64,000 nt of DNA. Origin: Phytopythium helicoides (taxonomy: Eukaryota > Oomycota > Peronosporomycetes > Pythiales > Pythiaceae). Made by a program: the position numbers and the translations under genes. Location of the stretch: positions 496,001 through 560,000 of the forward strand of contig JANFNE010000025.1 in NCBI GenBank assembly GCA_024867545.1, written 5' to 3'. The notes below the pieces were generated by a model. The model had not been told where the DNA came from. It did not search any database and was given only the letters and a program-made list of their open reading frames with translations. Shown here piece by piece: positions 15,201 through 63,208 of this stretch (position 1 is the first letter of the stretch; each line of letters begins with the position of its first letter).

Positions 15201-15977
15201 CGCAACGCACTCTATATCTTCCTATTTTTTGCGGGTCAAGCTTGGGTGGTTTTCCATTCCGAGTTCAAACAGCGCATCAATCACTTCCGTGATATCACGC
15301 TTAACTCGCAGAAGCAGAAGCTTGTGGAGGAAGAAGGACGCATCACCAAATTGCTGCTCAACCTATTGCCAGAAACGATTGTGCACAAGCTTAAAGAAGA
15401 TCCCGAGACCACGATAGCTGACTTCTTTGACAACGTGACTGTATTGTTCACTGACATGGTCAACTTCACGGCGTACTCATCCAAGGTATCTGCCATGGAG
15501 CTCGTGCAGTTCCTGAACGACATGTACACGCGATTCGATACAATTGCCGAGAAAGAGGATCTGTACAAGGTCGAAATCATTGGCGATGCGTATTTTGTCG
15601 TCGGCGGGTGTCCCGTTGTGACGCATACCAACGCACTGGCGGTTGTGACAGCAGCCACCGACATGTTCGCAGCACTCCCTCTGCTTCGGCGTAATTGCGG
15701 AGTTCCAGACCTGAACATTCGCATTGGCATCCACTCTGGACCAGTACTAGCAGGTGTCGTGGGTAGCAAAGACCCTCGGTATCACTTGTTTGGCGAGACC
15801 GTGACCATTGCGCACTTCCTCGAGAGCTCTGGCGTGCCCGGCCGCATCCACATCAGCGAGAACACATGGGCGAGCATGAACAAGGAGACGCCTGGCCACG
15901 GCTTCCGCGTCGAGTACCACACGCTGCTGTCCATCAACGGCATCCCCAAGAAGTTCCGCACGTACTTTGTCATGTAG
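12237..15977 (+). CDS. Two-module transmembrane class III nucleotide cyclase
   Basis: Makes a cyclic nucleotide at the membrane. Layout, about 1,245 residues: basic Ser-rich N-terminus, about six membrane helices (12740-13275), cyclase domain C1 (about 13430-13975), a Pro/Ser linker, about six more helices (14745-15270), and cyclase domain C2 (about 15420-15970). This is the 6TM-C1-6TM-C2 plan of animal adenylyl cyclases. C2 keeps both metal aspartates (VLFTDMVNF and VEIIGDAYF). It lacks the transition-state Asn and Arg (GETVTIAHFLES) and the phosphate Lys. C1 is the reverse: its metal positions are Glu (VLFAEVCDF) and Ala (VETIGAVYM), but it keeps Asn and Arg (GDTVNVASRME) and Lys (VFVKGRGEM). 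One complete active site can therefore form at the interface. The C1 purine-contact positions are Glu (VETIG, guanine-like) and Lys (PRFKLFG), so ATP versus GTP use is open. Frame corrections are needed near 12525, 12758, 12914 and 14478. The complementary halves argue for one polypeptide. Confidence 0.85.
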
Positions 15978-36985: not shown

Positions 36986-39900
36986 ATGCGCCGCCGACTT
37001 GTGAAGGAGAAGCCCTCGGGCGTAGAACGCCTGCCAGAAGTTGTGCATCCAGCTCCCGCAGTAGACGAGCGGCCCATGTCGCCCAGTGCGCCGCCCACGA
37101 CGCTGCCCAAGCCACTGTTCTCTACTGCCGCACTCAACAACAACTCGGAGAACAAGCGGTGCGTTACGGCTGGACTCGTGCTGCTTGAATTCGTGTGCTG
37201 ACAAATGGAAGGGTGTGCGTAGCGTGCTCGACATTCGCGACAAGAAGAAACTGAGGTGCATTTGGCTTGCACCCGACGAAGGTGTGTTATTGAAATTTCG
37301 AGTATCCAGGTTTGCGCGCTCTTCTAATCAGTTGGACAGGTGACCAGCAGATCGTGCGTCCCCCACCGCTTGACAGTATGCAATACGCCAACCTTGCGGT
37401 ACGATCTGCGCTGATGAAATCACAGTGACCTTTTTTTTCCTGACAATTGCTCAATTGCACAATGGTACCTACTAGTCATCGCGATTTGGGCAAAGCGGGA
37501 TGGCTAAGATCCAACGCACTGACGCTCTTGCGGCGCAACTGGAGAAGGCATGCCGCTATATGGACGCCGTTCACACATACGAGCAGTCGACCAAGATGTT
37601 GGTGCGAATTTCCGCGAACATGTTACAATGCAATTTCTTCCTCTAACCCGCTGCATAGCTGAGGTGTATTCAGAAACTTGGGGAGTCACATGACGTTGGT
37701 TCTGATGAGATCAAATGGCTGCGTATCGACTACGAGATTCGATGTGTTCAGCTCGTTGCATTGTGCCTTTGCGGGGCTCGTAAATCGGAAGCCATCGCAG
37801 ATAACACCCCTTTCCTAGTACGTCTGGAAGAGCTTTGTTTTGTTTCCTTGTTTGTTTTTCGTATTGAACTAAGCATGTAATTCTGGATGCCTTGGCATTC
37901 TAGCTACTTAAAAAAGGAGAGGATCTAACCTCTCGTGACGGCTTAGACTACTGCAAGAAAGCGATTCAAAGGGCTGCCGTCTACCAACACCTAGCCAATT
38001 ACTACAAGAAGCAGAAGAAATATCAAGCAGCACTCCAGGCAGCGGATAAATCTGTACATATTAACGAAAAGTTGTCCCCGCGGGATCGATTTCCGATGGC
38101 GTACTTTCTCAAGGCCTGCCTCCACGGTCTTTTGAATGATCCAAGTAACGCTGGGCTTATGTATACGCAATGCCTAGCACTAGCAGAATCCCAACAAACT
38201 TCTCGTTCTGGCAGTGCAACAGCGTCTTCTGACCCTCAAGCTCAAGAAGTGTTTTTCACCCTAAAAGCAGCAGCTCTGCACAATATGGCGGTCGAGTGGG
38301 CTAATCTGCATATGCCGGATCAAACTCGCGATGCGCTCGCAAGTGCCATGGAGATTGGCGTCCACAAACTGCCGCAGTCACATCCTATTGTCGTAAGAAT
38401 TTTAGAAACGTACAAGGTGATGCGGCAGAACTTTTTGTTTCGACGGAACTCTCTTGAAGGAGGAGATGGAGCAAGTAATGGTTCAGTCCACGACTTTCGT
38501 GAAGACTCGCCAGCAACGCGGAGATCAGCGGCGCCTACACCACCACGAGGGGTTTCTCCACGTCCTCGTAATCAGTTAGTGTCACCTCGTAATGCTCGAG
38601 CTTCCACCGTCGAAAGCGTAAACAGGAGAGAAGCAGATTACACTCCTACAAGACCACCAACGAGACCGTCAGATGCGGCTCAATCAGTTCCTCGCGTATC
38701 CCCTCGAGCAAGAAGCGCGACGAAGCGACCAACAACGACGCCAGAGGGTCCCGTGGGGTTGTCAGGACAGCCACTTCCCCCCGGAGCGACGCGAACGTCA
38801 CTGATTGTGGCTACCCCGAAGGATACGTATTCGCATGCGCTCGGTGCAAGGTATAACCCCCATAAAAGCTACGTTCGAGCTGAAGCCAGAGTCTTTGTAG
38901 TTCGAACAAAAGCGGCGACAAAAATTCAGGTGAGCGGTATTCAGATTGCCTTCTTTGGAATGAGATCCTGACTGATGTGTTTGGATAATGTGAATTCCTG
39001 CAGTGCTTCTGCCGCCGAGCGCTAGCTCGACACCGAGTTAAAATTTTACGAAATAATGCTGCGACCGCGATCCAAAGCCTGATGCGTATGCACATTGCTA
39101 AGCTCCGATATCACGTGCAAGTTGAGCAGATCAAGTGTATTCAAGGACTATGGCGTGGTGCACTTGTTCGATCTAGGCAGAAAGAGCGGATATTTGCAAC
39201 AGTGGCAATACAAGCCGCATGGAGAGCAAAAAGTGTAAGGGACAAGATCGAGCGCGAAAAAATGCAAGTCACCATGCTCCAAGCCCTGTATCGAGGGTTA
39301 GCCGCTCGTAAAAATATTGCAGAGAAGATGGAAGCAGCTAAGGTAATACAAGCCCACACGCGCAGGCATCTAGAAGAAATCAACTACAGGAAAATGATGC
39401 ATGCTGCTGAGACTCTCAACCGTGCCTTTCGTGGCATGTACGCACGCCACATCGTGCACCCGAAGGCTCTCGCCGACGCCAGAGTTCGTGAAGACGAGCT
39501 TTTTCTGCGCGAACAAGAGTTACTTTTGGCTACCACTGAAGTGGTAGCCTCATTGATTGATGCTGTCGAAGTCATTGAGGCAGAAAGAAACAGATTGACG
39601 CACCTTGCAGCAACTACTACTGCCGCCGCTAGTGAGATTGTGGCTGACAATCGAAGTGATGAAGTCCAAAGTAGCGAAACTAAAGATGCAAGTTATGAGG
39701 CCGAAGACGAGCACACTAAGCATGGATCAGAAAAAAATGTATCTGACAACACTGAAGCAACAGAATCGATGACAGATGGCAGCCTCCACGATAATCAAAA
39801 GTCTGCGATAGATGGTCAAAATCACGTAGCCGAGAGCAACCCACCGACAATCGCGGTAGCACCACGAGAACGCGTGCGAGCACTCCAAGATGACGTATTA

Positions 39901-42900
39901 CTAACAAAAAGCGATTCCAACCGCCTCATTTTGTCTGCTATACTGGCTGGGACGATTGCAAAACAAATCGATGCTGTTCTCAACGACGTCATCGACTCGT
40001 CATGCGATCCGAACGCAAGCTATAACTTACCTATTCAAAACACAATCACATTTCAACCAGCCCAAGCCCAAACAATCCTCGAGACCCCCACATCAACGAA
40101 ACAAATAAGTACTTGCTCCACTGGCTCCCCGACGTCAATATCACAACCAACATCAAGTCAATCAATCAACGCTAAGGAAGTCGATCAGGCGAAGGATCCG
40201 GTCGTGGACGCCGAGCCTGTGGTGTTCGAGGACGTGTCTACCGCTGTTGCTGCGCTGGTGTCGGGTGTGGAGGAGGTGTCGTTCGCTGCCGCTCCAGTCG
40301 AGTGCGAGTCATCTGTGCCGGTGGAGGTCGAGGAGGCGAAGGATCCGGTCGTGGACGCCGCGCCTGTGGTGTTCGAGGACGTGTCTACTGCTGTTGCTGC
40401 GCTGGTGTCGGGTGTGGAGGAGGTGTCGTTCGCTGCCGCTCCAGTCGAGTGCGAGTCATCTGTGCCGGTGGAGGTCGAGGAGGCGAAGGATCCGGTCGTG
40501 GACGCCGAGCCTGTGGTGCTCGAGGACGTGTCTACCGCTGTTGCTGCGCTGGTGTCGGGTGTGGAGGAGGTGTCGTTCGCTGCCGCTCCAGTCGAGTGCG
40601 AGTCATCTGTGCCGGTGGAGGTCGAGGAGGCGAAGGATCCGGTCGTGGACGCCGAGTCTGCGGTGTTCGACGACGTGTCTGCGACTTTGGTTGATCTTAT
40701 TGGAAGTGTTGCTAGCTGCGGACTACTTGATGAGGCTACGCACGAGCATATTACATCGTATCAAACGGCATCTGCTTCTGCTTTAAATGATGTCTTTGAC
40801 GATATCGCCGAAGAATTGCTATCAAGCGAAAAAGGAAACCAGTTTTCGATGTTCGAGGACGTGTCTACCGCTGTTGCTGCGCTGGTGTCGGGTGTGGAGG
40901 AGGTGTCGTTCGCTGCCGCTCCAGTCGAGTGCGAGTCATCTGTGCCGGTGGAGGTCGAGGAGGCGAAGGATTCGGTCGTGGACGCCGAGCTTGTGGTGTT
41001 CGACGACGTGTCTGCGACTTTGGTTGATCTTATTGGAAGTGTTGCTAGCTGCGGACTACTTGATGAGGCTACGCACGAGCATATTACATCGTATCAAACG
41101 GCATCTGCTTCTGCTTTAAATGATGTCTTTGACGATATCGCCGAAGAATTGCTATCAAGCGAAAAAGGAAACCAGTTTTCGATGTTCGAGGACGTGTCTA
41201 CCGCTGTTGCTGCGCTGGTGTCGGGTGTGGAGGAGGTGTCGTTCGCTGCCGCTCCAGTCGAGTGCGAGTCATCTGTGCCGGTGGAGGTCGAGGAGGCGAA
41301 GGATCCGGTCGTGGACGCCGAGCCTGTGGTGTTCGAGGACGTGTCTACCGCTGTTGCTGCGCTGGTGTCGGGTGTGGAGGAGGTGTCGTTCGCTGCCGCT
41401 CCAGTCGAGTGCGAGTCATCTGTGCCGGTGGAGGTCGAGGAGGCGAAGGATCCGGTCGTGGACGCCGAGCCCGTGGTGTTCGAGGACGTGTCTACCGCTG
41501 TTGCTGCGCTGGTGTCGGGTGTGGAGGAGGTGTCGTTCGCTGCCGCTCCAGTCGAGTGCGAGTCATCTGTGCCGGTGGAGGTCGAGGAGGCGAAGGATCC
41601 GGTCGTGGACGCCGAGCCTGTGGTGTTCGAGGACGTGTCTACCGCTGTTGCTGCGCTGGTGTCGGGTGTGGAGGAGGTGTCGTTCGCTGCCGCTCCAGTC
41701 GAGTGCGAGTCATCTGTGCCGGTGGAGGTCGAGGAGGCGAAGGATCCGGTCGTGGACGCCGAGCCCGTGGTGTTCGAGGACGTGTCTACCGCTGTTGCTG
41801 CGCTGGTGTCGGGTGTGGAGGAGGTGTCGTTCGCTGCCGCTCCAGTCGAGTGCGAGTCATCTGTGCCGGTGGAGGTCGAGGAGGCGAAGGATCCGGTCGT
41901 GGACGCCGAGCCTGTGGTGTTCGAGGACGTGTCTACCGCTGTTGCTGCGCTGGTGTCGGGTGTGGAGGAGGTGTCGTTCGCTGCCGCTCCAGTCGAGTGC
42001 GAGTCATCTGTGCCGGTGGAGGTCGAGGAGGCGAAGGATCCGGTCGTGGACGCCGAGCCTGTGGTGTTCGAGGACGTGTCTACCGCTGTTGCTGCGCTGG
42101 TGTCGGGTGTGGAGGAGGTGTCGTTCGCTGCCGCTCCAGTCGAGTGCGAGTCATCTGTGCCGGTGGAGGTCGAGGAGGCGAAGGATCCGGTCGTGGACGC
42201 CGAGCCTGTGGTGTTCGAGGACGTGTCTACCGCTGTTGCTGCGCTGGTGTCGGGTGTGGAGGAGGTGTCGTTCGCTGCCGCTCCAGTCGAGTGCGAGTCA
42301 TCTGTGCCGGTGGAGGTCGAGGAGGCGAAGGATCCGGTCGTGGACGCCGAGCCTGTGGTGTTCGAGGACGTGTCTACCGCTGTTGCTGCGCTGGTGTCGG
42401 GTGTGGAGGAGGTGTCGTTCGCTGCCGCTCCAGTCGAGTGCGAGTCATCTGTGCCGGTGGAAGTCGAGGAGGCGAAGGATCCGGTCGTGGACGCCGAGCC
42501 TGTGGTGTTCGAGGACGTGTCTACCGCTGTTGCTGCGCTGGTGTCGGGTGTGGAGGAGGTGTCGTTCGCTGCCGCTCCAGTCGAGTGCGAGTCATCTGTG
42601 CCGGTGGAGGTCGAGGAGGCGAAGGATTCGGTCGTGGACGCCGAGCCTGTGGTGTTCGAGGACGTGTCTACCGCTGTTGCTGCGCTGGTGTCGGGTGTGG
42701 AGGAGGTGTCGTTCGCTGCCGCTCCAGTCGAGTGCGAGTCATCTGTGCCGGTGGAGGTCGAGGAGGCGAAGGATTCGGTCGTGGACGCCGAGTCTGCGGT
42801 GTTCGACGACGTGTCTGCGACTTTGGTTGATCTTATTGGAAGTGTTGCTAGCTGCGGACTACTTGATGAGGCTACGCACGAGCATATTACATCGTATCAA

Positions 42901-45900
42901 ACGGCATCTGCTTCTGCTTTAAATGATGTCTTTGACGATATCGCCGAAGAATTGCTATCAAGCGAAAAAGGAAACCAGTTTTCGATGTTCGAGGACGTGT
43001 CTACCGCTGTTGCTGCGCTGGTGTCGGGTGTGGAGGAGGTGTCGTTCGCTGCCGCTCCAGTCGAGTGCGAGTCATCTGTGCCGGTGGAGGTCGAGGAGGC
43101 GAAGGATCCGGTCGTGGACGCCGAGCCTGTGGTGTTCGAGGACGTGTCTACCGCTGTTGCTGCGCTGGTGTCGGGTGTGGAGGAGGTGTCGTTCGCTGCC
43201 GCTCCAGTCGAGTGCGAGTCATCTGTGCCGGTGGAGGTCGAGGAGGCGAAGGATCCGGTCGTGGACGCCGAGCCTGTGGTGTTCGAGGACGTGTCTACCG
43301 CTGTTGCTGCGCTGGTGTCGGGTGTGGAGGAGGTGTCGTTCGCTGCCGCTCCAGTCGAGTGCGAGTCATCTGTGCCGGTGGAGGTCGAGGAGGCGAAGGA
43401 TTCGGTCGTGGACGCCGAGCCTGTGGTGTTCGAGGACGTGTCTACCGCTGTTGCTGCGCTGGTGTCGGGTGTGGAGGAGGTGTCGTTCGCTGCCGCTCCA
43501 GTCGAGTGCGAGTCATCTGTGCCGGTGGAGGTCGAGGAGGCGAAGGATCCGGTCGTGGACGCCGAGCCTGTGGTGTTCGAGGACGTGTCTACCGCTGTTG
43601 CTGCGCTGGTGTCGGGTGTGGAGGAGGTGTCGTTCGCTGCCGCTCCAGTCGAGTGCGAGTCATCTGTGCCGGTGGAGGTCGAGGAGGCGAAGGATCCGGT
43701 CGTGGACGCCGAGCCTGTGGTGTTCGAGGACGTGTCTACCGCTGTTGCTGCGCTGGTGTCGGGTGTGGAGGAGGTGTCGTTCGCTGCCGCTCCAGTCGAG
43801 TGCGAGTCATCTGTGCCGGTGGAGGTCGAGGAGGCGAAGGATCCGGTCGTGGACGCCGCGCCTGTGGTGTTCGAGGACGTGTCTACTGCTGTTGCTGCGC
43901 TGGTGTCGGGTGTGGAGGAGGTGTCGTTCGCTGCCGCTCCAGTCGAGTGCGAGTCATCTGTGCCGGTGGAGGTCGAGGAGGCGAAGGATCCGGTCGTGGA
44001 CGCCGAGCCTGCGGTGTTCGAGGACGTGTCTACCGCTGTTGCTGCGCTGGTGTCGGGTGTGGAGGAGGTGTCGTTCGCTGCCGCTCCAGTCGAGTGCGAG
44101 TCATCTGTGCCGGTGGAGGTCGAGGAGGCGAAGGATTCGGTCGTGGACGCCGAGTCTGCGGTGTTCGACGACGTGTCTGCGACTTTGGTTGATCTTATTG
44201 GAAGTGTTGCTAGCTGCGGACTACTTGATGAGGCTACGCACGAGCATATTACATCGTATCAAACGGCATCTGCTTCTGCTTTAAATGATGTCTTTGACGA
44301 TATCGCCGAAGAATTGCTATCAAGCGAAAAAGGAAACCAGTTTTCGATGTTCGAGGACGTGTCTACCGCTGTTGCTGCGCTGGTGTCGGGTGTGGAGGAG
44401 GTGTCGTTCGCTGCCGCTCCAGTCGAGTGCGAGTCATCTGTGCCGGTGGAGGTCGAGGAGGCGAAGGATTCGGTCGTGGACGCCGAGTCTGCGGTGTTCG
44501 ACGACGTGTCTGCGACTTTGGTTGATCTTATTGGAAGTGTTGCTAGCTGCGGACTACTTGATGAGGCTACGCACGAGCATATTACATCGTATCAAACGGC
44601 ATCTGCTTCTGCTTTAAATGATGTCTTTGACGATATCGCCGAAGAATTGCTATCAAGCGAAAAAGGAAACCAGTTTTCGATGTTCGAGGACGTGTCTACC
44701 GCTGTTGCTGCGCTGGTGTCGGGTGTGGAGGAGGTGTCGTTCGCTGCCGCTCCAGTCGAGTGCGAGTCATCTGTGCCGGTGGAGGTCGAGGAGGCGAAGG
44801 ATTCGGTCGTGGACGCCGAGTCTGCGGTGTTCGACGACGTGTCTGCGACTTTGGTTGATCTTATTGGAAGTGTTGCTAGCTGCGGACTACTTGATGAGGC
44901 TACGCACGAGCATATTACATCGTATCAAACGGCATCTGCTTCTGCTTTAAATGATGTCTTTGACGATATCGCCGAAGAATTGCTATCAAGCGAAAAAGGA
45001 AACCAGTTTTCGATGTTCGAGGACGTGTCTACCGCTGTTGCTGCGCTGGTGTCGGGTGTGGAGGAGGTGTCGTTCGCTGCCGCTCCAGTCGAGTGCGAGT
45101 CATCTGTGCCGGTGGAGGTCGAGGAGGCGAAGGATCCGGTCGTGGACGCCGAGCCTGTGGTGTTCGAGGACGTGTCTACCGCTGTTGCTGCGCTGGTGTC
45201 GGGTGTGGAGGAGGTGTCGTTCGCTGCCGCTCCAGTCGAGTGCGAGTCATCTGTGCCGGTGGAGGTCGAGGAGGCGAAGGATTCGGTCGTGGACGCCGAG
45301 TCTGCGGTGTTCGACGACGTGTCTGCGACTTTGGTTGATCTTATTGGAAGTGTTGCTAGCTGCGGACTACTTGATGAGGCTACGCACGAGCATATTACAT
45401 CGTATCAAACGGCATCTGCTTCTGCTTTAAATGATGTCTTTGACGATATCGCCGAAGAATTGCTATCAAGCGAAAAAGGAAACCAGTTTTCGATGTTCGA
45501 GGACGTGTCTACCGCTGTTGCTGCGCTGGTGTCGGGTGTGGAGGAGGTGTCGTTCGCTGCCGCTCCAGTCGAGTGCGAGTCATCTGTGCCGGTGGAGGTC
45601 GAGGAGGCGAAGGATCCGGTCGTGGACGCCGAGCCTGTGGTGTTCGAGGACGTGTCTACCGCTGTTGCTGCGCTGGTGTCGGGTGTGGAGGAGGTGTCGT
45701 TCGCTGCCGCTCCAGTCGAGTGCGAGTCATCTGTGCCGGTGGAGGTCGAGGAGGCGAAGGATCCGGTCGTGGACGCCGAGCCTGTGGTGTTCGAGGACGT
45801 GTCTACCGCTGTTGCTGCGCTGGTGTCGGGTGTGGAGGAGGTGTCGTTCGCTGCCGCTCCAGTCGAGTGCGAGTCATCTGTGCCGGTGGAGGTCGAGGAG

Positions 45901-48900
45901 GCGAAGGATTCGGTCGTGGACGCCGAGTCTGCGGTGTTCGACGACGTGTCTGCGACTTTGGTTGATCTTATTGGAAGTGTTGCTAGCTGCGGACTACTTG
46001 ATGAGGCTACGCACGAGCATATTACATCGTATCAAACGGCATCTGCTTCTGCTTTAAATGATGTCTTTGACGATATCGCCGAAGAATTGCTATCAAGCGA
46101 AAAAGGAAACCAGTTTTCGATGTTCGAGGACGTGTCTACCGCTGTTGCTGCGCTGGTGTCGGGTGTGGAGGAGGTGTCGTTCGCTGCCGCTCCAGTCGAG
46201 TGCGAGTCATCTGTGCCGGTGGAGGTCGAGGAGGCGAAGGATCCGGTCGTGGACGCCGAGCCTGTGGTGTTCGAGGACGTGTCTACCGCTGTTGCTGCGC
46301 TGGTGTCGGGTGTGGAGGAGGTGTCGTTCGCTGCCGCTCCAGTCGAGTGCGAGTCATCTGTGCCGGTGGAGGTCGAGGAGGCGAAGGATCCGGTCGTGGA
46401 CGCCGAGCCTGTGGTGTTCGAGGACGTGTCTACCGCTGTTGCTGCGCTGGTGTCGGGTGTGGAGGAGGTGTCGTTCGCTGCCGCTCCAGTCGAGTGCGAG
46501 TCATCTGTGCCGGTGGAGGTCGAGGAGGCGAAGGATCCGGTCGTGGACGCCGAGCCTGTGGTGTTCGAGGACGTGTCTACCGCTGTTGCTGCGCTGGTGT
46601 CGGGTGTGGAGGAGGTGTCGTTCGCTGCCGCTCCAGTCGAGTGCGAGTCATCTGTGCCGGTGGAGGTCGAGGAGGCGAAGGATCCGGTCGTGGACGCCGA
46701 GCCTGTGGTGTTCGAGGACGTGTCTACCGCTGTTGCTGCGCTGGTGTCGGGTGTGGAGGAGGTGTCGTTCGCTGCCGCTCCAGTCGAGTGCGAGTCATCT
46801 GTGCCGGTGGAGGTCGAGGAGGCGAAGGATCCGGTCGTGGACGCCGAGCCTGTGGTGTTCGAGGACGTGTCTACCGCTGTTGCTGCGCTGGTGTCGGGTG
46901 TGGAGGAGGTGTCGTTCGCTGCCGCTCCAGTCGAGTGCGAGTCATCTGTGCCGGTGGAAGTCGAGGAGGCGAAGGATCCGGTCGTGGACGCCGAGCCTGT
47001 GGTGTTCGAGGACGTGTCTACCGCTGTTGCTGCGCTGGTGTCGGGTGTGGAGGAGGTGTCGTTCGCTGCCGCTCCAGTCGAGTGCGAGTCATCTGTGCCG
47101 GTGGAGGTCGAGGAGGCGAAGGATCCGGTCGTGGACGCCGAGCCTGTGGTGTTCGAGGACGTGTCTACCGCTGTTGCTGCGCTGGTGTCGGGTGTGGAGG
47201 AGGTGTCGTTCGCTGCCGCTCCAGTCGAGTGCGAGTCATCTGTGCCGGTGGAGGTCGAGGAGGCGAAGGATCCGGTCGTGGACGCCGAGCCTGTGGTGTT
47301 CGAGGACGTGTCTACCGCTGTTGCTGCGCTGGTGTCGGGTGTGGAGGAGGTGTCGTTCGCTGCCGCTCCAGTCGAGTGCGAGTCATCTGTGCCGGTGGAG
47401 GTCGAGGAGGCGAAGGATCCGGTCGTGGACGCCGAGCCTGTGGTGTTCGAGGACGTGTCTACCGCTGTTGCTGCGCTGGTGTCGGGTGTGGAGGAGGTGT
47501 CGTTCGCTGCCGCTCCAGTCGAGTGCGAGTCATCTGTGCCGGTGGAAGTCGAGGAGGCGAAGGATCCGGTCGTGGACGCCGAGCCTGTGGTGTTCGAGGA
47601 CGTGTCTACCGCTGTTGCTGCGCTGGTGTCGGGTGTGGAGGAGGTGTCGTTCGCTGCCGCTCCAGTCGAGTGCGAGTCATCTGTGCCGGTGGAGGTCGAG
47701 GAGGCGAAGGATCCGGTCGTGGACGCCGAGCCTGTGGTGTTCGAGGACGTGTCTACCGCTGTTGCTGCGCTGGTGTCGGGTGTGGAGGAGGTGTCGTTCG
47801 CTGCCGCTCCAGTCGAGTGCGAGTCATCTGTGCCGGTGGAGGTCGAGGAGGCGAAGGATCCGGTCGTGGACGCCGAGCCTGTGGTGTTCGAGGACGTGTC
47901 TACCGCTGTTGCTGCGCTGGTGTCGGGTGTGGAGGAGGTGTCGTTCGCTGCCGCTCCAGTCGAGTGCGAGTCATCTGTGCCGGTGGAGGTCGAGGAGGCG
48001 AAGGATCCGGTCGTGGACGCCGAGCCTGTGGTGTTCGAGGACGTGTCTACCGCTGTTGCTGCGCTGGTGTCGGGTGTGGAGGAGGTGTCGTTCGCTGCCG
48101 CTCCAGTCGAGTGCGAGTCATCTGTGCCGGTGGAGGTCGAGGAGGCGAAGGATCCGGTCGTGGACGCCGAGCCTGTGGTGTTCGAGGACGTGTCTACCGC
48201 TGTTGCTGCGCTGGTGTCGGGTGTGGAGGAGGTGTCGTTCGCTGCCGCTCCAGTCGAGTGCGAGTCATCTGTGCCGGTGGAAGTCGAGGAGGCGAAGGAT
48301 CCGGTCGTGGACGCCGAGCCTGTGGTGTTCGAGGACGTGTCTACCGCTGTTGCTGCGCTGGTGTCGGGTGTGGAGGAGGTGTCGTTCGCTGCCGCTCCAG
48401 TCGAGTGCGAGTCATCTGTGCCGGTGGAGGTCGAGGAGGCGAAGGATTCGGTCGTGGACGCCGAGCCTGTGGTGTTCGAGGACGTGTCTACCGCTGTTGC
48501 TGCGCTGGTGTCGGGTGTGGAGGAGGTGTCGTTCGCTGCCGCTCCAGTCGAGTGCGAGTCATCTGTGCCGGTGGAGGTCGAGGAGGCGAAGGATTCGGTC
48601 GTGGACGCCGAGCCTGTGGTGTTCGAGGACGTGTCTACCGCTGTTGCTGCGCTGGTGTCGGGTGTGGAGGAGGTGTCGTTCGCTGCCGCTCCAGTCGAGT
48701 GCGAGTCATCTGTGCCGGTGGAAGTCGAGGAGGCGAAGGATTCGGTCGTGGACGCCGAGCCTGTGGTGTTCGAGGACGTGTCTACCGCTGTTGCTGCGCT
48801 GGTGTCGGGTGTGGAGGAGGTGTCGTTCGCTGCCGCTCCAGTCGAGTGCGAGTCATCTGTGCCGGTGGAGGTCGAGGAGGCGAAGGATCCGGTCGTGGAC

Positions 48901-51900
48901 GCCGAGCCTGTGGTGTTCGAGGACGTGTCTACCGCTGTTGCTGCGCTGGTGTCGGGTGTGGAGGAGGTGTCGTTCGCTGCCGCTCCAGTCGAGTGCGAGT
49001 CATCTGTGCCGGTGGAGGTCGAGGAGGCGAAGGATCCGGTCGTGGACGCCGAGCCTGTGGTGTTCGAGGACGTGTCTACCGCTGTTGCTGCGCTGGTGTC
49101 GGGTGTGGAGGAGGTGTCGTTCGCTGCCGCTCCAGTCGAGTGCGAGTCATCTGTGCCGGTGGAGGTCGAGGAGGCGAAGGATCCGGTCGTGGACGCCGAG
49201 CCTGTGGTGTTCGAGGACGTGTCTACCGCTGTTGCTGCGCTGGTGTCGGGTGTGGAGGAGGTGTCGTTCGCTGCCGCTCCAGTCGAGTGCGAGTCATCTG
49301 TGCCGGTGGAGGTCGAGGAGGCGAAGGATCCGGTCGTGGACGCCGAGCCTGTGGTGTTCGAGGACGTGTCTACCGCTGTTGCTGCGCTGGTGTCGGGTGT
49401 GGAGGAGGTGTCGTTCGCTGCCGCTCCAGTCGAGTGCGAGTCATCTGTGCCGGTGGAAGTCGAGGAGGCGAAGGATCCGGTCGTGGACGCCGAGCCTGTG
49501 GTGTTCGAGGACGTGTCTACCGCTGTTGCTGCGCTGGTGTCGGGTGTGGAGGAGGTGTCGTTCGCTGCCGCTCCAGTCGAGTGCGAGTCATCTGTGCCGG
49601 TGGAGGTCGAGGAGGCGAAGGATCCGGTCGTGGACGCCGAGCCTGTGGTGTTCGAGGACGTGTCTACCGCTGTTGCTGCGCTGGTGTCGGGTGTGGAGGA
49701 GGTGTCGTTCGCTGCCGCTCCAGTCGAGTGCGAGTCATCTGTGCCGGTGGAGGTCGAGGAGGCGAAGGATCCGGTCGTGGACGCCGAGCCTGTGGTGTTC
49801 GAGGACGTGTCTACCGCTGTTGCTGCGCTGGTGTCGGGTGTGGAGGAGGTGTCGTTCGCTGCCGCTCCAGTCGAGTGCGAGTCATCTGTGCCGGTGGAGG
49901 TCGAGGAGGCGAAGGATCCGGTCGTGGACGCCGAGCCTGTGGTGTTCGAGGACGTGTCTACCGCTGTTGCTGCGCTGGTGTCGGGTGTGGAGGAGGTGTC
50001 GTTCGCTGCCGCTCCAGTCGAGTGCGAGTCATCTGTGCCGGTGGAAGTCGAGGAGGCGAAGGATCCGGTCGTGGACGCCGAGCCTGTGGTGTTCGAGGAC
50101 GTGTCTACCGCTGTTGCTGCGCTGGTGTCGGGTGTGGAGGAGGTGTCGTTCGCTGCCGCTCCAGTCGAGTGCGAGTCATCTGTGCCGGTGGAGGTCGAGG
50201 AGGCGAAGGATCCGGTCGTGGACGCCGAGCCTGTGGTGTTCGAGGACGTGTCTACCGCTGTTGCTGCGCTGGTGTCGGGTGTGGAGGAGGTGTCGTTCGC
50301 TGCCGCTCCAGTCGAGTGCGAGTCATCTGTGCCGGTGGAGGTCGAGGAGGCGAAGGATCCGGTCGTGGACGCCGAGCCTGTGGTGTTCGAGGACGTGTCT
50401 ACCGCTGTTGCTGCGCTGGTGTCGGGTGTGGAGGAGGTGTCGTTCGCTGCCGCTCCAGTCGAGTGCGAGTCATCTGTGCCGGTGGAGGTCGAGGAGGCGA
50501 AGGATCCGGTCGTGGACGCCGAGCCTGTGGTGTTCGAGGACGTGTCTACCGCTGTTGCTGCGCTGGTGTCGGGTGTGGAGGAGGTGTCGTTCGCTGCCGC
50601 TCCAGTCGAGTGCGAGTCATCTGTGCCGGTGGAAGTCGAGGAGGCGAAGGATCCGGTCGTGGACGCCGAGCCTGTGGTGTTCGAGGACGTGTCTACCGCT
50701 GTTGCTGCGCTGGTGTCGGGTGTGGAGGAGGTGTCGTTCGCTGCCGCTCCAGTCGAGTGCGAGTCATCTGTGCCGGTGGAGGTCGAGGAGGCGAAGGATT
50801 CGGTCGTGGACGCCGAGCCTGTGGTGTTCGAGGACGTGTCTACCGCTGTTGCTGCGCTGGTGTCGGGTGTGGAGGAGGTGTCGTTCGCTGCCGCTCCAGT
50901 CGAGTGCGAGTCATCTGTGCCGGTGGAGGTCGAGGAGGCGAAGGATTCGGTCGTGGACGCCGAGCCTGTGGTGTTCGAGGACGTGTCTACCGCTGTTGCT
51001 GCGCTGGTGTCGGGTGTGGAGGAGGTGTCGTTCGCTGCCGCTCCAGTCGAGTGCGAGTCATCTGTGCCGGTGGAAGTCGAGGAGGCGAAGGATTCGGTCG
51101 TGGACGCCGAGCCTGTGGTGTTCGAGGACGTGTCTACCGCTGTTGCTGCGCTGGTGTCGGGTGTGGAGGAGGTGTCGTTCGCTGCCGCTCCAGTCGAGTG
51201 CGAGTCATCTGTGCCGGTGGAGGTCGAGGAGGCGAAGGATCCGGTCGTGGACGCCGAGCCTGTGGTGTTCGAGGACGTGTCTACCGCTGTTGCTGCGCTG
51301 GTGTCGGGTGTGGAGGAGGTGTCGTTCGCTGCCGCTCCAGTCGAGTGCGAGTCATCTGTGCCGGTGGAGGTCGAGGAGGCGAAGGATCCGGTCGTGGACG
51401 CCGAGCCTGTGGTGTTCGAGGACGTGTCTACCGCTGTTGCTGCGCTGGTGTCGGGTGTGGAGGAGGTGTCGTTCGCTGCCGCTCCAGTCGAGTGCGAGTC
51501 ATCTGTGCCGGTGGAAGTCGAGGAGGCGAAGGATCCGGTCGTGGACGCCGAGCCTGTGGTGTTCGAGGACGTGTCTACCGCTGTTGCTGCGCTGGTGTCG
51601 GGTGTGGAGGAGGTGTCGTTCGCTGCCGCTCCAGTCGAGTGCGAGTCATCTGTGCCGGTGGAGGTCGAGGAGGCGAAGGATCCGGTCGTGGACGCCGAGC
51701 CTGTGGTGTTCGAGGACGTGTCTACCGCTGTTGCTGCGCTGGTGTCGGGTGTGGAGGAGGTGTCGTTCGCTGCCGCTCCAGTCGAGTGCGAGTCATCTGT
51801 GCCGGTGGAGGTCGAGGAGGCGAAGGATCCGGTCGTGGACGCCGAGCCTGTGGTGTTCGAGGACGTGTCTACCGCTGTTGCTGCGCTGGTGTCGGGTGTG

Positions 51901-54900
51901 GAGGAGGTGTCGTTCGCTGCCGCTCCAGTCGAGTGCGAGTCATCTGTGCCGGTGGAGGTCGAGGAGGCGAAGGATCCGGTCGTGGACGCCGAGCCTGTGG
52001 TGTTCGAGGACGTGTCTACCGCTGTTGCTGCGCTGGTGTCGGGTGTGGAGGAGGTGTCGTTCGCTGCCGCTCCAGTCGAGTGCGAGTCATCTGTGCCGGT
52101 GGAGGTCGAGGAGGCGAAGGATCCGGTCGTGGACGCCGAGCCTGTGGTGTTCGAGGACGTGTCTACCGCTGTTGCTGCGCTGGTGTCGGGTGTGGAGGAG
52201 GTGTCGTTCGCTGCCGCTCCAGTCGAGTGCGAGTCATCTGTGCCGGTGGAGGTCGAGGAGGCGAAGGATTCGGTCGTGGACGCCGAGCCTGTGGTGTTCG
52301 AGGACGTGTCTACCGCTGTTGCTGCGCTGGTGTCGGGTGTGGAGGAGGTGTCGTTCGCTGCCGCTCCAGTCGAGTGCGAGTCATCTGTGCCGGTGGAGGT
52401 CGAGGAGGCGAAGGATCCGGTCGTGGACGCCGAGCCTGTGGTGTTCGAGGACGTGTCTACCGCTGTTGCTGCGCTGGTGTCGGGTGTGGAGGAGGTGTCG
52501 TTCGCTGCCGCTCCAGTCGAGTGCGAGTCATCTGTGCCGGTGGAGGTCGAGGAGGCGAAGGATCCGGTCGTGGACGCCGAGCCTGTGGTGTTCGAGGACG
52601 TGTCTACCGCTGTTGCTGCGCTGGTGTCGGGTGTGGAGGAGGTGTCGTTCGCTGCCGCTCCAGTCGAGTGCGAGTCATCTGTGCCGGTGGAGGTCGAGGA
52701 GGCGAAGGATCCGGTCGTGGACGCCGAGCCTGTGGTGTTCGAGGACGTGTCTACCGCTGTTGCTGCGCTGGTGTCGGGTGTGGAGGAGGTGTCGTTCGCT
52801 GCCGCTCCAGTCGAGTGCGAGTCATCTGTGCCGGTGGAGGTCGAGGAGGCGAAGGATCCGGTCGTGGACGCCGAGCCTGTGGTGTTCGAGCACGTGTCTA
52901 CCGCTGTTGCTGCGCTGGTGTCGGGTGTGGAGGAGGTGTCGTTCGCTGCCGCTCCAGTCGAGTGCGAGTCATCTGTGCCGGTGGAGGTCGAGGAGGCGAA
53001 GGATTCGGTCGTGGACGCCGAGCCTGTGGTGTTCGAGGACGTGTCTACCGCTGTTGCTGCGCTGGTGTCGGGTGTGGAGGAGGTGTCGTTCGCTGCCGCT
53101 CCAGTCGAGTGCGAGTCATCTGTGCCGGTGGAGGTCGAGGAGGCGAAGGATCCGGTCGTGGACGCCGAGCCTGTGGTGTTCGAGGACGTGTCTACCGCTG
53201 TTGCTGCGCTGGTGTCGGGTGTGGAGGAGGTGTCGTTCGCTGCCGCTCCAGTCGAGTGCGAGTCATCTGTGCCGGTGGAGGTCGAGGAGGCGAAGGATCC
53301 GGTCGTGGACGCCGAGCCTGTGGTGTTCGAGCACGTGTCTACCGCTGTTGCTGCGCTGGTGTCGGGTGTGGAGGAGGTGTCGTTCGCTGCCGCTCCAGTC
53401 GAGTGCGAGTCATCTGTGCCGGTGGAGGTCGAGGAGGCGAAGGATTCGGTCGTGGACGCCGAGCCTGTGGTGTTCGAGGACGTGTCTACCGCTGTTGCTG
53501 CGCTGGTGTCGGGTGTGGAGGAGGTGTCGTTCGCTGCCGCTCCAGTCGAGTGCGAGTCATCTGTGCCGGTGGAGGTCGAGGAGGCGAAGGATTCGGTCGT
53601 GGACGCCGAGCCTGTGGTGTTCGAGGACGTGTCTACCGCTGTTGCTGCGCTGGTGTCGGGTGTGGAGGAGGTGTCGTTCGCTGCCGCTCCAGTCGAGTGC
53701 GAGTCATCTGTGCCGGTGGAGGTCGAGGAGGCGAAGGATTCGGTCGTGGACGCCGAGCCTGTGGTGTTCGAGGACGTGTCTACTGCTGTTGCTGCGCTGG
53801 TGTCGGGTGTGGAGGAGGTGTCGTTCGCTGCCGCTCCAGTCGAGTGCGAGTCATCTGTGCCGGTGGAAGTCGAGGAGGCGAAGGATTCGGTCGTGGACGC
53901 CGAGCCTGTGGTGTTCGAGGACGTGTCTACCGCTGTTGCTGCGCTGGTGTCGGGTGTGGAGGAGGTGTCGTTCGCTGCCGCTCCAGTCGAGTGCGAGTCA
54001 TCTGTGCCGGTGGAGGTCGAGGAGGCGAAGGATCCGGTCGTGGACGCCGAGCCTGTGGTGTTCGAGGACGTGTCTACCGCTGTTGCTGCGCTGGTGTCGG
54101 GTGTGGAGGAGGTGTCGTTCGCTGCCGCTCCAGTCGAGTGCGAGTCATCTGTGCCGGTGGAGGTCGAGGAGGCGAAGGATCCGGTCGTGGACGCCGAGCC
54201 TGTGGTGTTCGAGGACGTGTCTACCGCTGTTGCTGCGCTGGTGTCGGGTGTGGAGGAGGTGTCGTTCGCTGCCGCTCCAGTCGAGTGCGAGTCATCTGTG
54301 CCGGTGGAGGTCGAGGAGGCGAAGGATTCGGTCGTGGACGCCGAGCCTGTGGTGTTCGAGGACGTGTCTACCGCTGTTGCTGCGCTGGTGTCGGGTGTGG
54401 AGGAGGTGTCGTTCGCTGCCGCTCCAGTCGAGTGCGAGTCATCTGTGCCGGTGGAGGTCGAGGAGGCGAAGGATTCGGTCGTGGACGCCGAGCCTGTGGT
54501 GTTCGAGGACGTGTCTACTGCTGTTGCTGCGCTGGTGTCGGGTGTGGAGGAGGTGTCGTTCGCTGCCGCTCCAGTCGAGTGCGAGTCATCTGTGCCGGTG
54601 GAGGTCGAGGAGGCGAAGGATTCGGTCGTGGACGCCGAGCCTGTGGTGTTCGAGGACGTGTCTACCGCTGTTGCTGCGCTGGTGTCGGGTGTGGAGGAGG
54701 TGTCGTTCGCTGCCGCTCCAGTCGAGTGCGAGTCATCTGTGCCGGTGGAGGTCGAGGAGGCGAAGGATTCGGTCGTGGACGCCGAGCCTGTGGTGTTCGA
54801 GGACGTGTCTACCGCTGTTGCTGCGCTGGTGTCGGGTGTGGAGGAGGTGTCGTTCGCTGCCGCTCCAGTCGAGTGCGAGTCATCTGTGCCGGTGGAGGTC

Positions 54901-57900
54901 GAGGAGGCGAAGGATCCGGTCGTGGACGCCGAGCCTGTGGTGTTCGAGCACGTGTCTACCGCTGTTGCTGCGCTGGTGTCGGGTGTGGAGGAGGTGTCGT
55001 TCGCTGCCGCTCCAGTCGAGTGCGAGTCATCTGTGCCGGTGGAGGTCGAGGAGGCGAAGGATTCGGTCGTGGACGCCGAGCCTGTGGTGTTCGAGGACGT
55101 GTCTACCGCTGTTGCTGCGCTGGTGTCGGGTGTGGAGGAGGTGTCGTTCGCTGCCGCTCCAGTCGAGTGCGAGTCATCTGTGCCGGTGGAGGTCGAGGAG
55201 GCGAAGGATTCGGTCGTGGACGCCGAGCCTGTGGTGTTCGAGGACGTGTCTACTGCTGTTGCTGCGCTGGTGTCGGGTGTGGAGGAGGTGTCGTTCGCTG
55301 CCGCTCCAGTCGAGTGCGAGTCATCTGTGCCGGTGGAGGTCGAGGAGGCGAAGGATTCGGTCGTGGACGCCGAGCCTGTGGTGTTCGAGCACGTGTCTAC
55401 CGCTGTTGCTGCGCTGGTGTCGGGTGTGGAGGAGGTGTCGTTCGCTGCCGCTCCAGTCGAGTGCGAGTCATCTGTGCCGGTGGAGGTCGAGGAGGCGAAG
55501 GATTCGGTCGTGGACGCCGAGCCTGTGGTGTTCGAGCACGTGTCTACCGCTGTTGCTGCGCTGGTGTCGGGTGTGGAGGAGGTGTCGTTCGCTGCCGCTC
55601 CAGTCGAGTGCGAGTCATCTGTGCCGGTGGAGGTCGAGGAGGCGAAGGATCCGGTCGTGGACGCCGAGCCTGTGGTGTTCGAGCACGTGTCTACCGCTGT
55701 TGCTGCGCTGGTGTCGGGTGTGGAGGAGGTGTCGTTCGCTGCCGCTCCAGTCGAGTGCGAGTCATCTGTGCCGGTGGAGGTCGAGGAGGCGAAGGATTCG
55801 GTCGTGGACGCCGAGCCTGTGGTGTTCGAGCACGTGTCTACCGCTGTTGCTGCGCTGGTGTCGGGTGTGGAGGAGGTGTCGTTCGCTGCCGCTCCAGTCG
55901 AGTGCGAGTCATCTGTGCCGGTGGAGGTCGAGGAGGCGAAGGATTCGGTCGTGGACGCCGAGCCTGTGGTGTTCGAGGACGTGTCTACCGCTGTTGCTGC
56001 GCTGGTGTCGGGTGTGGAGGAGGTGTCGTTCGCTGCCGCTCCAGTCGAGTGCGAGTCATCTGTGCCGGTGGAGGTCGAGGAGGCGAAGGATTCGGTCGTG
56101 GACGCCGAGCCTGTGGTGTTCGAGGACGTGTCTACTGCTGTTGCTGCGCTGGTGTCGGGTGTGGAGGAGGTGTCGTTCGCTGCCGCTCCAGTCGAGTGCG
56201 AGTCATCTGTGCCGGTGGAGGTCGAGGAGGCGAAGGATTCGGTCGTGGACGCCGAGCCTGTGGTGTTCGAGGACGTGTCTACCGCTGTTGCTGCGCTGGT
56301 GTCGGGTGTGGAGGAGGTGTCGTTCGCTGCCGCTCCAGTCGAGTGCGAGTCATCTGTGCCGGTGGAGGTCGAGGAGGCGAAGGATTCGGTCGTGGACGCC
56401 GAGCCTGTGGTGTTCGAGGACGTGTCTACCGCTGTTGCTGCGCTGGTGTCGGGTGTGGAGGAGGTGTCGTTCGCTGCCGCTCCAGTCGAGTGCGAGTCAT
56501 CTGTGCCGGTGGAGGTCGAGGAGGCGAAGGATTCGGTCGTGGACGCCGAGCCTGTGGTGTTCGAGGACGTGTCTACCGCTGTTGCTGCGCTGGTGTCGGG
56601 TGTGGAGGAGGTGTCGTTCGCTGCCGCTCCAGTCGAGTGCGAGTCATCTGTGCCGGTGGAGGTCGAGGAGGCGAAGGATTCGGTCGTGGACGCCGAGCCT
56701 GTGGTGTTCGAGGACGTGTCTACCGCTGTTGCTGCGCTGGTGTCGGGTGTGGAGGAGGTGTCGTTCGCTGCCGCTCCAGTCGAGTGCGAGTCATCTGTGC
56801 CGGTGGAGGTCGAGGAGGCGAAGGATCCGGTCGTGGACGCCGAGCCTGTGGTGTTCGAGGACGTGTCTACTGCTGTTGCTGCGCTGGTGTCGGGTGTGGA
56901 GGAGGTGTCGTTCGCTGCCGCTCCAGTCGAGTGCGAGTCATCTGTGCCGGTGGAGGTCGAGGAGGCGAAGGATTCGGTCGTGGACGCCGAGCCTGTGGTG
57001 TTCGAGGACGTGTCTACCGCTGTTGCTGCGCTGGTGTCGGGTGTGGAGGAGGTGTCGTTCGCTGCCGCTCCAGTCGAGTGCGAGTCATCTGTGCCGGTGG
57101 AGGTCGAGGAGGCGAAGGATTCGGTCGTGGACGCCGAGCCTGTGGTGTTCGAGGACGTGTCTACCGCTGTTGCTGCGCTGGTGTCGGGTGTGGAGGAGGT
57201 GTCGTTCGCTGCCGCTCCAGTCGAGTGCGAGTCATCTGTGCCGGTGGAGGTCGAGGAGGCGAAGGATTCGGTCGTGGACGCCGAGCCTGTGGTGTTCGAG
57301 GACGTGTCTACCGCTGTTGCTGCGCTGGTGTCGGGTGTGGAGGAGGTGTCGTTCGCTGCCGCTCCAGTCGAGTGCGAGTCATCTGTGCCGGTGGAGGTCG
57401 AGGAGGCGAAGGATTCGGTCGTGGACGCCGAGCCTGTGGTGTTCGAGGACGTGTCTACCGCTGTTGCTGCGCTGGTGTCGGGTGTGGAGGAGGTGTCGTT
57501 CGCTGCCGCTCCAGTCGAGTGCGAGTCATCTGTGCCGGTGGAGGTCGAGGAGGCGAAGGATTCGGTCGTGGACGCCGAGCCTGTGGTGTTCGAGGACGTG
57601 TCTACCGCTGTTGCTGCGCTGGTGTCGGGTGTGGAGGAGGTGTCGTTCGCTGCCGCTCCAGTCGAGTGCGAGTCATCTGTGCCGGTGGAGGTCGAGGAGG
57701 CGAAGGATCCGGTCGTGGACGCCGAGCCTGTGGTGTTCGAGGACGTGTCTACCGCTGTTGCTGCGCTGGTGTCGGGTGTGGAGGAGGTGTCGTTCGCTGC
57801 CGCTCCAGTCGAGTGCGAGTCATCTGTGCCGGTGGAGGTCGAGGAGGCGAAGGATCCGGTCGTGGACGCCGAGCCTGTGGTGTTCGAGGACGTGTCTACC

Positions 57901-58908
57901 GCTGTTGCTGCGCTGGTGTCGGGTGTGGAGGAGGTGTCGTTCGCTGCCGCTCCAGTCGAGTGCGAGTCATCTGTGCCGGTGGAGGTCGAGGAGGCGAAGG
58001 ATCCGGTCGTGGACGCCGAGCCTGTGGTGTTCGAGGACGTGTCTACCGCTGTTGCTGCGCTGGTGTCGGGTGTGGAGGAGGTGTCGTTCGCTGCCGCTCC
58101 AGTCGAGTGCGAGTCATCTGTGCCGGTGGAGGTCGAGGAGGCGAAGGATCCGGTCGTGGACGCCGAGCCTGTGGTGTTCGAGGACGTGTCTACCGCTGTT
58201 GCTGCGCTGGTGTCGGGTGTGGAGGAGGTGTCGTTCGCTGCCGCTCCAGTCGAGTGCGAGTCATCTGTGCCGGTGGAGGTCGAGGAGGCGAAGGATTCGG
58301 TCGTGGACGCCGAGCCTGCGGTGTTCGAGGACGTTTTGCTTGGTGTGGACGGAGTTGTTGACAGCGGTGGTGGTGGGGAAGTTAACCATTTGGCCAGCAG
58401 AAGTGGATATTTTTCAAGTGAGGCTGGTGAATGTTGTCATCAAGTTGGCCGCGCATCGGCTATTCTCGCTTTACCTGAGCCTGTAGGGTTCGAGGTTGCT
58501 TTTGCGACTCCAGTCGGTATTAATTTGGTGTCTTCGGAAGCTGATGGCTGTGCAGTAGGTGGAGCTTCATCTAGTATTATCAGGCTCGGAGCGCCAGTTG
58601 GGTTTGACGGTTTATATCCCATCGGTGGAGGTGATGCAGTTTTAGACGGTGAAGAAACTGGGGACCTGAGTGCGTCTTCATCATCGTCATCACTGGTAGC
58701 GAGCGTGAGCCAATTTCGCTTGCTAATGGCAACTGAGCCCAGCATCCCTATAGATGACAGTTACGTTGAAGCGTTAATCGGAGAGTGCACTGGAGATCTA
58801 GAAGATCTTGACGACGCGTTGTCCGAGGTCTTTGATGTGATTCACGGCGCCGACGAATCTCCAAGATCGAGTCCACGGCGTTCACCCTCTCATTCGCCTC
58901 GACGTTAA
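36986..58908 (+). CDS. Giant IQ-motif protein with 113-unit tandem repeat (about 7,168 residues)
   Basis: Model with seven exons: 36986-37158, 37223-37281, 37340-37398, 37476-37601, 37659-37817, 37904-38929, 39004-58908. All introns are GT..AG, 57-86 nt, and frame is kept without repair; the first two exons are least certain. The N-terminal part is helical with TPR-like segments (ALAAQLEKACRYMDAVHTYE, HLANYYKKQKKYQAALQAAD). A basic Pro/Ser/Arg linker follows, then about seven IQ motifs around 38905-39460 (for example ATKIQCFCRRALARHR, CIQGLWRGALVRSRQ, AIQAAWRAKSV), which bind calmodulin or myosin-type light chains. An acidic linker leads to the array (40189-58335). The unique C-terminal 190 residues are Gly/Ser-rich and end in an SPRRSPSHSPRR-like basic tail. 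Each 49-residue unit has 12 acidic residues, one Lys and one Cys, so the array is strongly negative. A long, charged cytoskeletal or flagellar spacer is my best guess; no known homologue. Confidence 0.8.
40666..46122 (+). repeat. Eight 186-bp type-B modules inside the array
   Basis: Modules at 40666-40851, 40999-41184, 42802-42987, 44164-44349, 44497-44682, 44830-45015, 45310-45495 and 45937-46122. Each encodes FDDVSATLVDLIGSVASCGL, DEATHEHITSYQTASASALN and DVFDDIAEELLSSEKGNQFSM, 62 residues. Spacing is always 186 bp plus a multiple of 147 bp (1, 11, 8, 1, 1, 2 and 3 A-units between successive modules). Base use is more A/T-rich than the A units. They occur only in the first third of the array. 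By position and DDVSATL/EDVSTAV similarity, B probably shares ancestry with A. Confidence 0.95.
48280..51078 (+). repeat. Higher-order duplication in the array, 16 units (2,352 bp)
   Basis: The GAAGTC variant at 48280 and 48721 recurs at 50632 and 51073, both 2,352 bp (16 x 147) later. The run of three successive Ser (TCG) units between them also recurs at the same offset (about 48447-48741 and 50799-51093). This marks a block copied as a unit, as expected from unequal crossing-over or a slipped sister exchange. Confidence 0.75.
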
Positions 58909-62300: not shown

Positions 62301-63208
62301 CTCTTGGTTCGAGACGTCACCGTTCCTTGTGTCCTTGATCCACTGCTTCAAATACCGAGCGCAAGCCTTCTCGAGTGTGTCGAAGATGTTAACGTTGGGC
62401 CGGAAGTCTAAGAAAGACACATCAGGCATCTTGAACAGTTCCTGCCCGTCACCCTGCCTGAGTGTCTCCCATCCGCTTGCCACCATCATTTCCCAGCACT
62501 TCGACGACAGGCCCTCAATCTTGTTGAGGGCAGCAATTGCATCCGTGGCGACTTGGTTCGAGGGCTCAGCAGCATTCTTCTTTGGCGAGCTCTTGCGCTG
62601 CTTCGCGACCTTGTGCGTCTTGTGTGTCGAAGAGGGGCGTGTCTCCTGCAGAGATTCATCGAGCGCGTTCTTCCTCTTGCCAAGATTGCTGGCCGCGTCC
62701 TGCAGCTTTTTGACAAAGAACTCGGTCGCCTGCAAAAGCGCCACACGCAGCGTTAGCTCCACCGTCGCTGCTCGGAATTCTGCTCGCCTGTATCATTTAC
62801 CTCCCCGTCCGTGGTGGCCTTGGCGGTGAGTTCTTCGGCCTCGGCGCAGGCGCGCTGGTAGACCGCGTGCATCTCGGTGCGCACAATCTCTTCCTCGGAG
62901 ACGCCGAGCTCTCGGCAGAGCGGGCCGAACTCGTGGCGGTCGGCGAAGTCCGCGGCCAGCAGGTCGTCCTCGTGCGCGACGCAGAACTGCAGGTTGGGCG
63001 CGACGCCCGGCGCGCGCACGCGGGCGGCGCGCGGTCCGACGCCCAGGAAGTGCACGACGCGGTCCTCAACGTCCAGCGCGGGCTTGGCGTCGCGCAGGCT
63101 GGCGACGCTGTGCATGTGGGCGGCGGCCGCCGAGTAGTCGGCGTACACGCAGGCGGGCCAGGGCACCTGCATGGCGCGCAGCTTGACCCAGCGCACTCGC
63201 GGCGCCAT
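59386..63208 (-). CDS. CDC6: PWWP-GW-module-CDC6 fusion: replication licensing ATPase
   Basis: Four exons (62801-63208, 60507-62729, 60249-60442, 59386-60187), introns 60-71 nt, 1,208 residues, no frame repair. CDC6 with ORC loads the MCM helicase at origins. The AAA+ part is CDC6-like: RESEFAEIRGFF, Walker A SGAPGCGKTALL (about 855-862), HVNAMSLKNTEAL, Walker B LVLVLDEMDTLL, sensor-1 FVLIGIANQVDFTE, arginine/sensor-2 GDIRLALDTCRRL, then a winged-helix segment. The first exon encodes a PWWP-type chromatin reader (RVRWVKLRAMQVPWPACVYA). Between lie four copies of a module of about 55 residues (near 213, 285, 461 and 613); the last two read GWFWKSSTFGYTYYRPHC and GWHYKPGKFEYDYFKPHC. Acidic linkers and TP/SP sites before the ATPase (VFTPSPSNVKKPK) suggest CDK control. 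Splicing at GAG/GTAAAT and TTTGCAG/GCG joins the PWWP exon in frame. Confidence 0.85.

Follow-up and report, generated by a model that had tools for sequence, protein, structure and literature searches.

A predicted giant gene joining tandem IQ motifs to an acidic array of 121 repeat units

Known giant repeat proteins and the present gene

Giant repeat scaffolds are a known kind of protein, and the gene described here is provisionally placed among them. It occupies positions 36986-58908 of the forward strand in a 64,000-nucleotide stretch of DNA (C19:496001-560000, hereafter the window) from a genome of 49.06 Mb in 100 contigs, and its predicted product joins a TPR-like head, a neck of IQ motifs and a very long acidic repeat array. 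Gene structure, domains, copy number and array make-up were determined, and candidate partner domains were found in the same genome. No description of such a gene was found in the titles and abstract openings among the open-licence matches listed, and the terms 'IQ motif', 'tetratricopeptide' and 'AKAP' are absent from the main text of PMC3471859.

Several described systems resemble parts of this protein. In myosin V, too, IQ motifs follow one another at intervals of about 23 residues; unlike it, the present protein showed no motor domain in a Pfam scan of residues 1-939 at E values up to 1, and it carries the TPR-like head and the giant acidic array instead. ALMS1, the Alstrom syndrome protein, is not known to have an IQ neck. 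It is a giant protein with a domain of tandem 47-residue units; one exon of 6.1 kb makes up 49% of its coding sequence, and the repeats are Ser/Pro rich with little secondary-structure potential (PMC6327082). The present protein is similar in its giant size, its tandem repeats and its one very large exon, which is an analogy only; it differs in the make-up of its repeats and in a tail without a listed match to the ALMS motif. A Pfam scan of the last 303 residues at E values up to 1 listed only PM2_P3 (E 0.056, below its cut-off) and no ALMS motif, for which Pfam presumably contains a model.

AKAPs and other interactors of docking domains, such as radial-spoke protein 3, share with the present protein an amphipathic helix with paired hydrophobic positions, here a putative docking site, and the present genome likewise encodes the partner domains. 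Unlike AKAPs, the protein has about 113 copies of the helix in one chain, and these are candidate docking sites with weak motif statistics. Titin PEVK segments are Pro/Glu/Val-rich spacers that serve as an extended tether, and both the spacer composition and the tether idea apply to the present array as well; however, the spacer here has only one Lys per unit, is highly acidic and is regularly interrupted by a helix. Lpv and other giant oomycete spore proteins have a repeat structure. PnLpv, the large-peripheral-vesicle protein of Phytophthora, is a glycoprotein of more than 400 kDa that is stored in vesicles (PMC3869178). The present protein is similar to this class as a giant oomycete protein. 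It differs in having IQ motifs and in lacking a signal-like N-terminus: inspection of exon 1 (residues 1-57) by eye revealed no hydrophobic signal-like stretch. For these two reasons, a secreted spore-coat protein was considered unlikely.

Gene model, head and IQ neck

The gene was rebuilt as seven exons on the forward strand with a spliced length of 21,507 nt, encoding 7,168 residues followed by one terminal stop. A sequence-only reading of the window had proposed a single gene for about 7,168 residues at this place, and the rebuilt frame gave exactly this number. The predicted protein has a mass of 739 kDa and a pI of 4.05. All six introns (57-86 bp) have GT-AG borders and join the upstream exons in frame, as had been proposed. 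Exon 1 (36986-37158) starts with the first ATG downstream of an in-frame stop. Exons 2 (37223-37281) and 3 (37340-37398) keep the frame between GT-AG borders, and with the exon 2 donor placed at 37281/37282 the frame stays open. The helical head begins in exon 4 (37476-37601) and continues in exon 5 (37659-37817), while exon 6 (37904-38929, residues 193-534) encodes TPR-like helices and then a Pro/Arg/Ser-rich part and ends within the first IQ motif. Exon 7 (39004-58908) holds the remainder of this motif, IQ motifs 2-7, the pre-array helices, the array and the C-terminal tail. With 19,905 bp it is open from end to end, in agreement with the earlier claim of a stop-free last exon of 19.9 kb, and is contained in a stop-free stretch at 38989-58908.

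The seven IQ-type motifs (38924-39447, forward strand) lie 23-24 residues apart, and the first is split by the intron at 38930-39003. A loose pattern found six starts, at residues 533, 557, 580, 603, 626 and 672, and a stricter pattern found five; one more, imperfect motif, the sixth in the row, was recognized by eye at residue 649, which bears out the earlier count of about seven. The Pfam IQ model (PF00612) matched with an E value of 2.4e-13 (49 bits against a cut-off of 20.3), and two stretches passed individually. All 21 of its 21 positions were matched at residues 527-547, across the exon 6/7 border at residues 534/535. Because the first IQ motif exists only after splicing, it is the strongest sign that the splicing is real. 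The motif spans the junction, and everything else in the IQ part lies with the array in one uninterrupted exon; that a single gene unites the two, as the sequence-only reading had held, is well supported.

A search of solved structures at E values up to 0.1 returned three matches, all three to myosin V, the best of them (E 8.3e-5) to the IQ region of myosin-Va. The tandem motifs place the protein among the IQ-motif proteins and predict the binding of calmodulin or related light chains. A scan of the viral_contigs set with the IQ part gave four pattern matches and no relatives.

In the head, residues from about 100 to 385 are helical and TPR-like, and five TPR models overlap at residues 217-247, all under their own Pfam cut-offs; the best, TPR_10, matched residues 216-250 with an E value of 2e-4 and 21.7 bits against a cut-off of 27.5. 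Apart from the IQ and five TPR models, the scan of residues 1-939 listed one weak match, nsP3_ZBD. A single-sequence structure model of exon 6 contained seven helices at low confidence (pLDDT 44), and a search of the PDB with the head alone found one designed TPR protein (E 0.34). The helical N-terminus of the sequence-only reading is retained as a TPR-like head that is helical in the model, although the TPR models stay below the Pfam cut-offs.

Repeat array, its helix and competing explanations

Downstream of the IQ part, an acidic stretch precedes a partial opening unit of 17 residues (40174-40224), which contains spacer only. The array proper (40225-58323, residues 942-6974) consists of 121 units without indels, namely 113 of 147 bp or 49 residues and eight of 186 bp or 62 residues. 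The longer units are interspersed within the first third of the array, at 40666-40851, 40999-41184, 42802-42987, 44164-44349, 44497-44682, 44830-45015, 45310-45495 and 45937-46122, and none occurs beyond the last of these. The 113 units reported earlier were therefore those of 49 residues; the eight of 62 residues had been overlooked. The 49-residue consensus is rich in Val, Glu and Pro, with one Cys, one Lys and a net charge of -11. The charge estimated before (about -11 per unit and more than -1,200 in total) agrees with this consensus and with the net charge of -1,322 for the array, whereas the number of Cys is 121 and not about 113.

On the array, the Pfam models PM2_P3 (31.4 bits, cut-off 27) and MatC_N (24.9 bits, cut-off 23) scored above threshold for the whole protein, but no single stretch passed individually. 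Both were rejected and, together with the weaker matches to Vta1_C, Neogenin_C, At5g52880_ARM and DUF4762, read as summed scores of a compositionally biased unit present many times. The 49-residue unit has a third-position GC of 0.755, where local codon usage predicts 0.530 +- 0.071; the value is 0.39 in the 62-residue unit, 0.44 before the array and 0.38 after it. GC-biased gene conversion would explain the raised value. In 2-kb windows over 40001-58000, the GC skew is +0.21 to +0.31 and the AT skew -0.18 to -0.34; the GC skew of the unit is +0.29, and +0.25 +- 0.05 was predicted from its amino-acid content and local codon usage.

The array is followed by a C-terminal tail of 194 residues (58324-58908) that has an amphipathic stretch close to the end and terminates in an Arg/Ser/Pro sequence. 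A common origin of the tail and the units was considered but found no support, the comparisons giving P 0.35 for the 49-residue unit and P 0.46 for the 62-residue unit; no likeness was found between the pre-array part and the tail either (P 0.88). None of 1,000 shuffles was as good as the match of the 49-residue unit to the pre-array part, a match that reflects only the partial opening unit. Weak likenesses were obtained between the 62-residue unit and the pre-array part (P 0.016), between the two unit types (P 0.037) and between the halves of the 62-residue unit (P 0.039).

The 113 copies of the 147-bp unit differ at 10 variable sites, which define 16 haplotypes without any indel. The unit types are clustered, with 44 adjacent identical pairs against 29.5 +- 3.7 after shuffling, and one block of nine units is present twice, the longest such block in 300 shuffles having a mean of 3.9 and a maximum of 9. 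The likeness of neighbours and the duplicated block are in line with unequal exchange, by which the array would have grown through single units and small blocks.

The 49-residue unit contains one stretch of 18 residues with a complete a/d heptad core (6 of 6 positions), as do 4.2% of 20,000 shuffled units. The helix is likewise compatible with the paired hydrophobic positions of docking helices, those that anchor kinases included. In a tightened form, the AKAP-type pattern is matched by the unit (1.75% of shuffles) and by the end of the unique C-terminal tail (3.45% of shuffles), and only once in the 5,748 residues of nine other open reading frames (ORFs) of the window. In non-redundant protein, its two matches compare with 0.15 expected (Poisson P 0.011). 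Acidic helices are poor calmodulin partners, and calmodulin was accordingly regarded as unlikely to bind those of the array. A partner of the RIIa/DPY-30 class is the best guess, from weak statistics. Interactors of such docking domains are said to occur predominantly in cilia and flagella (PMC12203939). The cytoskeletal or flagellar role suggested by the sequence-only reading has not been supported so far.

The explanation preferred here, though tentatively and with less than even confidence, is that the protein is a giant multivalent scaffold or tether in the cytosol with an IQ neck. The TPR-like head would fix the protein to a target; the seven consecutive IQ motifs would bind calmodulin-type light chains and form a stiff, Ca2+-responsive neck. 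The array would display about 113 amphipathic helices (FEDVSTAVAALVSGVEEV), mostly one per 49 residues, on acidic spacer that is rich in Pro, Glu and Val. A small helical partner would most likely dock on each of these helices, with a protein carrying a docking/dimerization domain of the RIIa/DPY-30 class as the leading candidate. Numerous partners could then be gathered on one extended molecule, possibly within the flagellar apparatus or near it. The array may have been enlarged by unequal exchange, one unit or a small block at a time. The intact spliced frame, codon usage in the array, the apparent lack of a paralogue, the heptad core, the tightened pattern, the partner domains encoded in the genome and the clustering of unit types speak for such a scaffold. 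A more specific form of it would be a calmodulin-regulated docking rail, in which one chain offers more than 100 docking helices to RIIa/DPY-30-type dimers. A rail of this kind is quite improbable; if it were true, it could reach the micrometre scale when extended, and its valency would be set, and could be quickly changed, by unequal exchange within one 19.9-kb exon.

Several observations weigh against the scaffold. Charge-hydropathy analysis predicted neither the unit nor the spacer as disordered, and the structure models had low confidence, that of a few units with pLDDT 40 and that of the head with pLDDT 44. The hydrophobic moment of the helix, 0.41, is not exceptional, being equalled or exceeded by 8.6% of 3,000 shuffles. 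The permissive AKAP-type pattern, its usual form, was found 20 times in the nine other ORFs and in 50% of shuffled units, and because half of these match it is no evidence; its tightened form was devised post hoc, after the unit had been inspected. The distinct variants in the 49-residue unit comprise seven nonsynonymous and three synonymous changes, with no sign of purifying selection. Finally, the codon score of the tail is 0.005 in the reading frame and is exceeded by three of the five other frames, largely because of the first 300 nt of the tail.

The main rival is a plain acidic tether, a somewhat unlikely possibility in which the array is an extended spacer that acts as an entropic spring or a low-affinity Ca2+ buffer, length and charge count but the helix is irrelevant, and unequal exchange lets the number of units drift freely. 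The strongly negative, Val/Glu/Pro-rich unit with its one Lys, the -1,322 charge overall and the apparently neutral 7:3 ratio within units fit this, as do the clustered unit types and the nine-unit block, which point to frequent exchange, although at least one of the 300 shuffles also reached nine. A plain spacer would not be expected to repeat a complete heptad core or to have a related helix in the 62-residue unit (P 0.037). In addition, a 36-nt segment at the unit junction holds 8 of the 10 variable sites (P 0.005), a distribution that would leave the helix untouched, but P rises to 0.16 if the four sites at 139-143 are merged as one event. Self-association of the helices, or their binding to tubulin-type partners, into a filament or rootlet-like fibre is very improbable: the complete a/d core of about three heptads speaks for such a fibre, but it covers only 18 residues between stretches of Pro-rich spacer, and the few-unit model, of very low confidence (pLDDT 40), showed no ordered assembly.

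It is also conceivable, though unlikely, that the product is a truncated TPR-IQ protein, some 900-1,100 residues long, and that the expanded array is rarely or never translated in full, owing to alternative splicing, early termination or a strain-specific allele. A 20-unit stretch of 49-residue units lacks stops in every forward frame and in one reverse frame; because four of the six frames of the 147-bp unit are open, as are at least four frames in 7.97% of 20,000 shuffled units, the openness of the array is weak evidence for coding and needs no selection. The near-identical copies, which indicate recent expansion, and the third-position GC of 0.755 against 0.38-0.44 in the surroundings also suit a short product. 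However, codon usage, trained on four ORFs of the window (3,338 codons), scored the reading frame of the 20-unit stretch at +0.151, by far the best value, and the other five frames at -0.419, -0.366, 0.010, -0.107 and -0.048. The 389 pre-array codons contain no stop in the reading frame and 11-26 in the others; the 191 tail codons contain none, against 5-16 (about 10 on average) in the other five. Moreover, all 120 measured spacings between units are multiples of three. Codon usage and the unique, stop-free sequences that flank the array support its reading frame, and translation across the whole array is predicted. An antisense ORF of 4,134 residues that mirrors the array (46032-58436, reverse strand) and two further long forward ORFs over it, all with worse codon scores, were set aside as by-products of the stop-poor unit.

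Genomic context and significance

The gene is apparently single-copy, as judged from searches of the genome. A 22-base word of the array unit occurs 98 times in the genome, always within the array, and exon 6 and the tail matched only themselves. With the IQ part plus the array as query, 116 matches were obtained at E values up to 0.001, of which 113 lie in the gene; the three weak matches elsewhere (E 4e-5 to 6e-4) chiefly cover the IQ part. No second copy of the head, array or tail was found by this search, which scores the best candidates only.

Elicitins are a mark of oomycetes. The genome contains 64 elicitin matches, whereas none was found in 14 control genomes, and three matches to radial-spoke protein 3, two of them strong; together these indicate that the host is most likely a flagellated oomycete. 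Docking-domain matches above cut-off comprise two for RIIa, the second of them marginal (22.5 against 22.4 bits), and four for DPY-30. The frame at the better RIIa match (L020 1444-1842, forward strand) is followed, by eye, by EF-hand-like sequence and may encode a small docking partner. Parallel sets of elicitin genes, each near a radial-spoke-3 gene, are located at C23:295-316 kb and C68:1472-1500 kb and may represent a segmental duplication or two haplotypes left uncollapsed. At C83:69778-71181, four tandem elicitin matches lie in one frame of 647 residues.

The neighbours of the gene in the window were assigned by Pfam. On the forward strand, they are a FAM184-like gene (4099-7458), an adenylate/guanylate cyclase catalytic domain (14121-15974), a kinesin motor (24047-25219) and a lipin-type LNS2 domain (34836-36593); on the reverse strand, an Alg9-type mannosyltransferase (9780-11438), a Cdc6/ORC-like match just at cut-off (59389-60339) and a weak AAA_16 match below cut-off (60225-62792). 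A forward ORF of 624 residues (1005-2879) contains many short tandem repeats at 1028-2436, mainly with periods of 15, 24, 33 and 39 bp, and matched no Pfam family at E values up to 0.001.

If it is translated in full, the product would be a very large oomycete protein of 739 kDa, in which a scaffold-like head and an IQ neck are followed by a near-perfect array of over 100 acidic units, each a helix plus a spacer. Such a protein would lend itself to studying how cells use, tolerate and maintain extreme multivalency in a single chain, and also the pace at which its array changes from strain to strain.

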